From Paenibacillus sp. FJAT-29882 (GTDB lineage: Bacteria; Bacillota; Bacilli; Bacillales; DSM-1321): a DNA stretch of 64,000 nt. The stretch lies in contig NZ_LMVB01000001.1 of assembly GCF_001510645.1 (NCBI RefSeq), positions 701,854-765,853 on the forward strand, written 5' to 3'. The notes beneath the pieces were generated by a model that saw nothing but the letters and a program-made list of their open reading frames with translations, searched no databases and was not told the origin of the DNA. Of the stretch, positions 30,559 to 55,719 are shown piece by piece (position 1 is the first letter of the stretch; every line of letters begins with the position of its first letter). The position numbers were made by a program, and so were the translations under genes.

Positions 30559-30893
30559 GCGTACTTCACTATGTAGAAAAAATCAGTATTGGCTCCACCT
30601 ACGCCAATACCACGATAGCCACGCATGCTATCCACCTGAGTTTTAGTATAGGGATATATTGTTAATTTGATATAATGCTTGTATAAAGAAGTGTAAAAAA
30701 GTGGTGACGATTATTACAAATTTTCTCGCCGTGGCTGAATGATGCGGTGGGCGGAGTATAGAGGGGGAACATAGACTTTGGGGCGTGAAATTCCCTTACC
30801 GTTTCAATGATTACAAGCCAGAAATTACATTAGCGAGTGGGATTGATGTCATTACGTGCCACAAGTAGCTCGATGCACCTACCAACAAAAAAA
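30559..30893. other. Gene-poor stretch with a decayed coding fragment
   Basis: A stretch at 30755-30868 (+) reads as a short peptide ending GIDVITCHK and looks like the decayed end of some gene. No start, SD or match can be supported. A promoter-like TATAAT is at about 30671-30678. Nothing else is clear. Confidence 0.3.
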
Positions 30894-30914
30894 AGAAGGC
30901 CAAATGCCTTCGTT
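30888..30914 (-). terminator. Terminator of the riboswitch-controlled small ORF
   Basis: On the minus strand GAAGGCATTT and GGCCTTC form a hairpin followed by eight or more Ts. It lies 10-40 bases after the stop of the 41-codon ORF, in the correct orientation. Confidence 0.85.
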
Positions 30915-30924
30915 ATTCGTTCAG

Positions 30925-31050
30925 CTATGAGATTTTTTTTCGGCTTTTATTTCCGAATTTCACGTATGTATGACCGTCTTCAGATTTGAAAAATTTGATT
31001 CGAAAGAGCTTCAAAGGTGTCCAGACTTCTCTCATTTTATGTAAGGCCAT
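30925..31050 (-). CDS. 41-residue small protein under a c-di-GMP riboswitch
   Basis: Too short for usual gene calling. The ATG at 31050 has AAAGGATGAGG just upstream, and the stop at 30925-30927 is followed by a terminator; a c-di-GMP-I riboswitch lies directly upstream. The product is basic, with Trp, several Phe and a C-terminal Lys/Arg cluster (KSRKKIS), and no membrane helix or signal peptide. I do not recognise a family. A second in-frame ATG six codons later is possible. The complete unit promoter-riboswitch-SD-ORF-terminator argues that it is expressed. Confidence 0.65.
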   Translation of the reverse strand: MALHKMREVWTPLKLFRIKFFKSEDGHTYVKFGNKSRKKIS

Positions 31051-31065
31051 CTATCCTCATCCTTT

Positions 31066-31152
31066 TAGCGGTAGCACAGCCATCTTAGCATCTTTGCTTT
31101 AGACCTGTAACTTTGCGTCCTTATTTTTCAATAAGTTTGCCTTTCACAAAAT
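31066..31152 (-). ncRNA. Cyclic di-GMP-I (GEMM) riboswitch
   Basis: Read on the minus strand: GGCAAACTTATT, a GAAA tetraloop, AATAAGGACGCAAAG, then the P2 arm with GGTCTAAAGC...GCTAAGATGGC and the closing GTGCTACC. The invariant GGCAAAC, GGACGCAAAG and tetraloop/receptor parts of the GEMM-I aptamer are all there, and the P1b stem (CTTATT/AATAAG) is perfect. It ends about 5 bases before the SD of the 41-codon ORF, with no terminator between, so control is probably at translation initiation. Confidence 0.87.
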
Positions 31153-31170
31153 TATTCAACTTCTTAGAAA

Positions 31171-31200
31171 AGTATACCAATAAAAAGGCTAAAAGGTTAA
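31171..31200 (-). promoter_or_regulatory. Probable promoter of the riboswitch transcript
   Basis: On the minus strand TTAACC (31200-31195), 18 bases, TATACT (31176-31171). The start would fall ~10 bases before the aptamer. Confidence 0.55.
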
Positions 31201-53768: not shown

Positions 53769-55719
53769 GTGCCTGTCAGAGCGACCGAGCCTAGGTTGCA
53801 ACATATAGTGGGTGGGATTCCCACCGAGAAGGAACTAGCCATTCACTCGTAGCGAGTCTTGGAGGGCAAGGGGTAACTCTTGTCTTTAAGTGTAGACAGT
53901 TAGGTAATGGGCCGAAAGCCAATTGGTTGAAGGGATTGAGCTCCGAAATACCCAGTTAAGAGGGCTAATGTATTTGACAGTACAGAAAGCAACATTCCTA
54001 ATTTCGTAAGGGCGAGAAAGTAGGAACCTCTTCGGAGTCGAAGACCTCGGCACGTTACACATTGATATGTTGTAGCAACTCGGGAGATCCTGTCGGTCTT
54101 TCAAGAATAATAATAGAGAGTATGGCAAAACAAGCGATAACAAGTGAGTAAGCCAAACGCCGCACAGGAAGTCGGATAGCTGCGTAGTACCTATGAAGTC
54201 GGATAACTCTGATGGAGGAAAGGCAGTTACCCTATCATTGTCCTTATAGGGAAACATTTACTACACACAGAGGTAGGTATAATAAATGGAAACAAAACTA
54301 CTAAGGATAGCAGAATTAGCAAAATCTCAACCGGAAATGAAGTTTACTTCACTAGTAGACCTTCTTAATGAATCATCACTCAAACAGTGTCATTATGAAT
54401 TACCGAGTAGAAAAGCACCCGGTATACATCAGATCACAAAAGAAGAATATGAGCTAGATTTAGAAAGTAATATTTCTGATTTAGTAAAACGCATGAAGCA
54501 GAAAAGTTACCGACCTACTCCAGTTCGAAGAACCTATATAAGTAAACCAGGGACAAACAAGAAAAGACCATTAGGTATTCCAGAACATGAAGATAAAATA
54601 GTTCAACGTGGAATAGCGAAAATCTTAAACTCCATCTATGAACAGGATTTCTTAGATAACTCCTTTGGTTTTAGACCGAAACGTAGCTGTCATGATGCGC
54701 TGAAAATATTGAATGTCTATATTGATAAAAGATACACCAATTATATTGTAGACGCTGATATTAAAGGATTCTTTGATCATGTGGACCATAATCGGATGAT
54801 GGAATTCTTACAACATCGTATCGATGACCCAAATCTTTTAAGATTGATAGCTAGATTCTTAAAAGGTGGGTATATGGAAGAAGGAATGTTATTTAAAACG
54901 GAGACAGGAACTCCTCAGGGAGGAATCATTTCCCCGATTTTAGCAAATATCTATCTTCATTATGTACTTGACCTGTGGTTTGAGAAGGTTGTAAGGAAAC
55001 AATGTAAGGGGCAAGCGTACATTGTCAGATACGCTGATGACTTCGTATGTTGTTTTCAATATAAAGATGATGCCGAAGCATTTTACCGAGCACTTACTCA
55101 ACGCTTGAAGAAGTTCAATCTCGAGATAGCAGAAGATAAAACGAAAATTATACCATTTGGTCGATTTGCGGAGACAAACTGCAAAAGAAATGGGGAAGGC
55201 AATCTTCAAACATTTGATTTTCTAGGTTTTACTCATTATTGTAGTAAAAGCCAAACTGGAAAATTTCGAGTGAAACTCAAATCAAGCGGTAAGAAAATGC
55301 GAGCGAAGCTCAAAGAGTGTAAAGAATGGCTGAAAGCTAATCGAACAACTGATATTCATGAGGTAAAGAGAAGGTTAGACCGCTCATTGGTAGGATATTA
55401 CAAATACTATTGTGTAACGGACAATATAAAACATGTGAGTAACTTCAAGAATAAGGTGAGAAGACTATTCTTCAAATGGATGAACAGACGAAGTCAAAAG
55501 AAGTCGTTTAACTGGGAAAAGTTCGCTCTATTCCTGAAGAGGTTCCCCTTCCCGGTAGCACGAACAAAAGTCAACTTATTCGAACTTAAAAGTGAGATTA
55601 ACTATATACTGTAAAAGGTGATAGGGAGGAGCCGTGTGCGTTAATTGCGCCCGCACGGTTCTGAGAGGGGCGCCGGAACACAATTTTCCGTATGGTAGAG
55701 AGGTTCCCGCCTACTCGAC
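53769..55719 (+). mobile_element. Group II intron
   Basis: A self-splicing retroelement of ~1.95 kb. It starts at GTGCCTGTCAGAGCGACC and has a structured ~510-base 5' part (domains I-III), a maturase ORF in domain IV and domain V at 55630-55663 (GAGCCGTGTGCG...CGCACGGTTC). It has a domain VI stem ending CCTACTCGAC. The boundaries are estimated from these motifs. No flanking target duplication is expected. It looks complete and may be active. Confidence 0.85.
54286..55614 (+). CDS. ltrA: Group II intron reverse transcriptase/maturase
   Basis: 442 residues. RT motifs: RPLGIPEHEDKIVQRG, FLDNSFGFRPKRSCHDAL, DADIKGFFDHVDH, GTPQGGIISPILANIYL and the catalytic YADDFVCCF. Maturase domain X is at about residues 320-430 (GYYKYYCVTDN). 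There is no HNH endonuclease domain, so mobility would rely on replication-fork or single-stranded targets, as in several bacterial classes. An SD-like GAGGTAGG precedes the ATG. Confidence 0.93.
   Translation: METKLLRIAELAKSQPEMKFTSLVDLLNESSLKQCHYELPSRKAPGIHQITKEEYELDLESNISDLVKRMKQKSYRPTPVRRTYISKPGTNKKRPLGIPEHEDKIVQRGIAKILNSIYEQDFLDNSFGFRPKRSCHDALKILNVYIDKRYTNYIVDADIKGFFDHVDHNRMMEFLQHRIDDPNLLRLIARFLKGGYMEEGMLFKTETGTPQGGIISPILANIYLHYVLDLWFEKVVRKQCKGQAYIVRYADDFVCCFQYKDDAEAFYRALTQRLKKFNLEIAEDKTKIIPFGRFAETNCKRNGEGNLQTFDFLGFTHYCSKSQTGKFRVKLKSSGKKMRAKLKECKEWLKANRTTDIHEVKRRLDRSLVGYYKYYCVTDNIKHVSNFKNKVRRLFFKWMNRRSQKKSFNWEKFALFLKRFPFPVARTKVNLFELKSEINYIL

Follow-up and report, generated by a model that had tools for sequence, protein, structure and literature searches.

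What does a cyclic di-GMP-I riboswitch control when the only gene behind it is a 41-codon open reading frame (ORF) beside a polysaccharide locus? The question is raised by a compact unit on the minus strand of a 64,000-nucleotide stretch of the Paenibacillus sp. FJAT-29882 genome (contig NZ_LMVB01000001.1, positions 701,854 to 765,853; this whole stretch is the window, and its coordinates are used below), in which a promoter-like element, a cyclic di-GMP-I (GEMM-I) aptamer, a Shine-Dalgarno (SD) sequence, the ORF and an intrinsic terminator follow each other in this order. The promoter-like element (31171-31200) consists of the -35 box TTAACC (31200-31195), an 18-nt spacer and the TG-extended -10 box TATACT (31176-31171), a 9/12 match in a consensus scan. 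The aptamer occupies 31067-31151, and directly 3' of it the SD region AAAAGGATGAGGATAG (31051-31066, the SD at 31066-31055) was read from the sequence. The ORF (30925-31050) encodes a basic protein of 41 residues, MALHKMREVWTPLKLFRIKFFKSEDGHTYVKFGNKSRKKIS, which belongs to an unnamed family with the core M[KR]E[IV]WTPL, and the terminator GAAGGCATTTGGCCTTC, followed by T8, was located by scan at 30887-30911 (stem 30911-30895); the unit contains nothing besides this ORF.

Between 30500 and 31600, promoter-like sites are not in excess over shuffled sequences (three found, 3.4 expected) and terminator-like sites are (three found, 0.7 expected). Promoter and terminator of the unit are supported by their conservation in Peribacillus loiseleuriae (L065), where promoter, aptamer, SD, ORF and terminator all align with two single-base gaps only, the SD region is kept and the terminator stem is identical, while identity, judged by eye, declines upstream of the promoter and past the terminator. 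An earlier note on this DNA, made from its letters, had claimed the promoter TTAACC-18-TATACT, the SD, the 41-codon ORF and the terminator, and all of these parts and their coordinates stand. The unit is a genuine new cyclic di-GMP-I unit, the riboswitch itself being of a known kind.

The aptamer, likewise claimed before, matches Rfam RF01051 over the full length of the model (cmscan, positions 1-87) with 76.1 bits versus a gathering threshold of 35 (E 3.7e-13 in the window), and its GGCAAAC, GAAA, GGACGCAAAG and TCTAAAGC parts are all present. In this class the base-recognition position before CAAAC is G for cyclic di-GMP and A for cGAMP; the window aptamer has G. It is located upstream of its gene, ending 16 nt before the ATG, as the riboswitch class requires. 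The predicted cyclic di-GMP receptor is, on these sequence features, the RNA aptamer and not the protein. The proposal that the protein is a cyclic di-GMP effector can therefore not be kept as worded, as nothing points to binding of the second messenger by the protein and no PilZ or other cyclic di-GMP receptor domain of Pfam or NCBIfam was matched by four family members at E values up to 10.

The 41-codon ORF is a real gene under purifying selection. Compared with P. loiseleuriae, its closest named relative (protein 95% identical), by which kinship the window genome is probably that of a Peribacillus, it shows nine synonymous and two non-synonymous changes and a dN/dS of 0.04 (0.021/0.488), far from 1, and neutrality is rejected with P = 2e-5 (binomial). 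Only this sister-species pair was used, because 41 codons make pairwise dN/dS across the whole family noisy (median 0.42 and maximum 1.6 over 803 pairs). Relatives are encoded by 28 of 36 genomes of the genus and by 78 of 397 genomes of the order, in 27 of 135 sampled genera; the named genome collection contributes 51 family loci, from Peribacillus, Domibacillus, Rossellomorea, Halalkalibacter and others. The family shares the core M(P)...(K/R)E(I/V)WTPL, followed by a hydrophobic/basic stretch and a basic tail, and by eye the protein has no hydrophobic span.

Four family members matched no Pfam and no NCBIfam family at E values up to 10, including the SinI anti-repressor family PF08671, so that the description of a small basic protein as unrecognised, already given in the earlier note, is correct for these libraries. 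The same four members gave a single match in PHROGs (E 0.06), and a profile search of PDB sequences gave a single match as well (E 1.5); plasmid and phage records contained no match, and no paper among the open-licence literature was tied to the family. The predicted structure, of modest confidence (AlphaFold pLDDT 77, pTM 0.43), comprises a strand, a short helix and a hairpin, and Foldseek found no fold match at E<=0.001 in PDB and BFVD.

Whether aptamer and gene belong together beyond this one unit was assessed by a GEMM-I search around 90 family loci, 51 from the named collection and 39 picked for diversity from order-wide matches, with a model (R1) built from 16 aptamers and a cut-off of E<0.001; ten of the 16 sequences come from family loci, and R1 thus leans towards such loci. 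Four of the 90 loci are duplicates on the same contig, which leaves 86 non-identical loci, four of which encode long proteins. The aptamer ends 17-40 nt before the start codon in 19 of the 86 loci and begins 12-35 nt after the stop codon in 15; one locus (L082) is the sole one with aptamers on both sides, which makes a total of 33 loci with an adjoining aptamer, not all independent events as the loci are related. About 0.01 loci would be expected by chance in a rough estimate at 10 aptamers per genome, the actual counts ranging from 0 to 20. In all 33 loci the adjoining aptamer lies on the strand of its gene, and the upstream arrangement spans at least seven genera by genus code.

Genomes with the family are rich in GEMM-I, though not saturated: 33 of 35 carry it, with up to 20 copies, as do all 36 genus genomes, with 1-17 copies. 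Of 12 loci re-tested with Rfam's own model, 11 again gave the adjoining aptamer; the one missed was L136, which together with L169 has a marginal upstream aptamer (E 0.3 and 0.7) that was left out of the count. The remaining 53 of the 86 loci have no confident aptamer adjoining the gene; in two loci (L144 and L146) an opposite-strand aptamer is located 126 and 222 nt behind it. Cumulatively, the search shows that the 41-residue family recurs beside GEMM-I aptamers. As a separate observation, one upstream aptamer (L066:5899-5981) carries ACCAATC in place of the recognition motif GGCAAAC in front of an intact ORF; judged from this exchange, it probably no longer binds cyclic di-GMP.

With respect to the mode of action, we consider it somewhat probable that the unit is monocistronic and that cyclic di-GMP, via the aptamer, controls translation, the product being a mini-regulator of the surface/biofilm switch. 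Upon sensing of the second messenger, the aptamer would change the access of the ribosome to the SD and start region. Translation is the likeliest level of control because only 16 nt separate aptamer and ATG; this gap, like the gaps of 17-40 nt in the 19 upstream loci, holds the SD and little else. A possible alternative (anti-aptamer) helix was found by duplex computation: its putative 5' arm UUUUGUGAAAGGC (31139-31151, minus strand) overlaps the GGC of GGCAAAC, and its putative 3' arm GCCUUACAUAAAA (31035-31047, minus strand) starts in codon 2 of the ORF and ends within codon 6. In this helix 12 of 13 positions are paired, with z -3.6 for the whole computed duplex, and P. loiseleuriae, despite an H4Y codon change, retains it (z -3.1) through swaps between G-C and G-U pairs. 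Without ligand, codons 2-6 would be paired with the 5' strand of the aptamer; binding of the ligand would open this helix and permit translation.

Neither for the 19 leaders nor for the window leader did folding point consistently to ON or to OFF. Duplexes between leader arm and start region have a negative z in 18 of the 19 loci, with a mean of about -1.5, and several of them extend P1 instead of competing with it. In nine of the 19 leaders, among them L140, in which no constraint could be placed, the minimum energy is the same with the aptamer constraint as without; in three the two energies lie 4.9-10.6 kcal/mol apart, and mean SD exposure is little changed in most. Upon imposition of the full Rfam structure on the window leader, accessibility rises at codon 2 (0.02 to 0.87) and falls at the SD bases (e.g. 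at one G from 0.49 to 0.20), the latter part of the result pointing to OFF. We lean towards cyclic di-GMP turning translation ON, and do so only because of the conserved alternative helix.

The most unusual part, as judged from sequence, is the placement of an aptamer behind the stop codon. It occurs in 13 of the 16 Rossellomorea-type loci (Rossellomorea and near relatives named Bacillus) of the named collection, the exceptions being L094, L097 and L108, and in one locus of another genus (L173), the aptamer beginning 16-35 nt after the stop in all 14. The flanks can extend P1, with GCGUAC/GUACGC in some loci and AUAUGUA/UACAUAU in others, an extension which is weak in L083, L084 and L100. Eight of the 14 loci have a T-tailed AAACC.../...GGTTT hairpin whose start lies 21-41 nt past the aptamer. 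With two G-C pairs and -2.7 to -5.7 kcal/mol, each of these hairpins is weak, and a scan for terminators reported no terminator-like site in L095, probably because its hairpin has only two G-C pairs, so that 'terminator' is a reading of these hairpins only. The next ORF of at least 100 codons is convergent in five of the 14 loci; in eight it shares the strand and lies within 500 nt, and in L173 it is 1.6 kb distant. The sequence behind the hairpin is not common to all 14, being shared inside subgroups with the same neighbour gene; the aptamer consequently seems tied to the small gene and not to any one downstream gene.

This arrangement looks like a 3'-UTR aptamer, which may tune the preceding mRNA in its stability or in the formation of its 3' end and may be held in place by P1 extensions whose pairing is kept while their sequence changes. 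Rival readings are a leader of the differing downstream genes, which applies above all to the six loci without hairpin, an antisense-acting riboswitch on convergent genes such as those surveyed in PMC9943018, or a leftover from a lost GEMM-SinI unit. A tentative extension, which we hold to be less likely than not, is that mini-protein family and aptamer class form a portable partnership in which the aptamer works from either end of the mRNA, 5' and translational in at least seven genera or within the 3'-UTR in the Rossellomorea type.

The role of the protein may be approached through the company it keeps. Nine further GEMM-I aptamers are present in the window genome. They precede two SinI-like proteins, two Spo0E-like proteins, a methyl-accepting chemotaxis protein (MCP), a CheY-like protein, a Cache-HAMP protein truncated at the end of the locus, an ORF of 66 residues without assignment and a small ORF that is broken. 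PF08671 (SinI) is matched by four GEMM-controlled SinI-like ORFs. GEMM-I directly precedes the Spo0E-like proteins at G000:C2:115067-115149 (L001) and G000:C16:193227-193309 (L002), the L001 copy, the only one scanned, matching PF09388; a direct input of cyclic di-GMP into the Spo0A pathway is possible at these sites. Peribacillus butanolivorans (L082/L028) has a tandem GEMM-ORF-GEMM-SinI with a degraded first aptamer. In eight P. simplex-like loci a GEMM-SinI-like unit follows 234-3176 nt after the ORF, and no confident aptamer was found upstream of the ORF, with one remnant (L076, E 0.95); SinI identity in these loci was tested with Pfam for one P. simplex-like locus and L082 and otherwise assigned by resemblance. 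The company of GEMM-controlled SinI-like, Spo0E-like and chemotaxis genes suggests a role in the motile-to-sessile switch, as regulator or adaptor, and by this association the 41-residue protein is most likely a mini-adaptor or regulator of the transition to the surface, parallel to the SinI-like and Spo0E-like proteins and presumably acting on a partner.

The window genome also has a second, decayed unit with two in-frame TGA codons and a 25.8-bit aptamer remnant, which precedes a lasso-peptide-like cluster and is followed by a GEMM-SinI unit. The cluster (G000:C1, L174:10054-16508) comprises Asn synthase, HPr-kinase-like, PqqD-like, transglutaminase-like and ABC transporter genes; similar clusters lie beside copies of the 41-residue gene in L071-L073, L076, L077, L080 and L086, the central copy being positioned after the cluster in L071, L073 and L076. 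A possible further GEMM-I-controlled small protein of 52-71 residues, with a pattern like WH..R..YH.ALLE.CLD..LK......YHE.KL, was observed at L083:4930-5013, L084:4946-5030, L100:2092-2179, L111:4387-4472 and L115:4515-4600, and, apparently frameshifted, in the window genome (G000:C1:787286-787375, L174:2287-2376); two members had no Pfam match.

Proximity to exopolysaccharide genes, on which the earlier note had built, stands in part. The polysaccharide locus adjoins the unit (window ORFs from 32517 on), its ORFs being identified as similar to clusters in which the members from L068 match Wzz and, at a sub-threshold score, AAA_31. The same proximity is seen in several Peribacillus loci and for three of the four long relatives, which are membrane proteins, but nearest neighbours are mixed overall. 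Among 97 scanned proteins of the 104 nearest ORFs of 52 of the 90 loci, LytR-CpsA-Psr occurs four times, CWB2 and VanZ three times each and every other family at most twice, and no single conserved partner gene emerged. In the long relatives (L093, L106, L113, L114) the family module is N-terminal in a protein 254-277 residues long, which has, by eye, one apparent membrane span and no Pfam or NCBIfam match above cut-off. Those of L106, L113 and L114 are encoded zero to two genes behind Wzz-like and tyrosine-kinase-like genes, the kinase label resting on a sub-threshold AAA_31 match, and all four loci carry a gene of one cluster, the scanned member of which has SLH domains. The polysaccharide region of the window also contains two epsC RNA elements (RF01735; 34864-34989 and 59423-59534, 98.9 and 107.8 bits), and group II intron parts (RF02005, RF00029) are found at 53815-54047 and 55627-55719.

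Other readings of the unit are conceivable. Known Bacillus GEMM-I examples often act by transcription termination. Two rho-independent terminators are reported for Bc1 in PMC11218506, and such precedents favour a control of transcription termination or RNA stability, ON or OFF, instead of translation; as neither the sequence nor the terminator scan revealed a terminator in the 16 nt between window aptamer and start codon, and as the gaps of the 19 upstream loci measure 17-40 nt, we regard this as rather unlikely. It is very unlikely that the riboswitch controls something else, with the ORF only as its leader or as a piece of the expression platform. The ORF is indeed short, and the eight Peribacillus-type loci with GEMM-I before a downstream SinI-like ORF could be seen in this light, but amino acid conservation extends over 27 genera, dN/dS is low in the sister-species pair, and the 53 loci devoid of a confident adjoining aptamer keep the protein. 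The leader peptide was rejected since the terminator follows the ORF, with nothing else in the unit.

A small basic peptide also brings to mind a type I-like toxin or the precursor of a modified peptide, the latter especially in the seven loci where a lasso-like cluster adjoins the gene. We consider this highly improbable: a toxin was rejected for want of a hydrophobic segment (by eye), most family loci of the named collection are without such a cluster, and a lasso precursor was rejected as both clusters checked (L086, L174) have a separate precursor-like ORF between synthetase and kinase genes. These separate ORFs have LEVL[ND][IV]NMTM[AL]G leaders, which we take to be a lasso-precursor leader motif. 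That the window aptamer stems from an ancestral GEMM-ORF-GEMM-SinI tandem, is decaying and no longer matters is suggested by the degraded upstream aptamers of L082 (35.9 bits) and L066, with its altered recognition motif, and by the decayed second unit of the window genome; this is quite improbable, as in the window copy no conserved part of the aptamer is missing and the ORF is intact, and as the sister species has kept promoter and terminator. Translational control of a mini-regulator is thus the reading we retain.

Among known systems, the window aptamer shares with the cyclic di-GMP-I riboswitch (RF01051) the full-length covariance match and the conserved parts. It differs from known members in its target, a 41-residue family found in no library or paper searched, and in its geometry, as the start codon follows 16 nt after the aptamer and, in the Rossellomorea type, the aptamer follows the gene. 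The family, hitherto undescribed in the libraries and literature searched, is added to the likely cyclic di-GMP regulon of Bacillales and placed beside the mini-regulators SinI and Spo0E under one signal, whereby a direct RNA route from cyclic di-GMP to the biofilm/sporulation decision becomes testable.

A close parallel is Bacillus methanolicus, where, according to PMC4342826, a cyclic di-GMP riboswitch is located before sinI, the other targets being two genes without known function and a cyclic di-GMP turnover operon; in Peribacillus, too, GEMM-I precedes a mini-regulator of the biofilm pathway. An action from the 3'-UTR in the Rossellomorea type would, if true, be an unusual riboswitch mode in bacteria. 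In the survey of PMC9943018, the cyclic di-GMP family is the one most prone to antisense action (152 antisense, 2,554 sense), and five of the 14 after-stop aptamers also face a convergent gene. While the antisense-acting riboswitches described there target a gene of opposite orientation, the aptamer here has the same orientation as its small gene.
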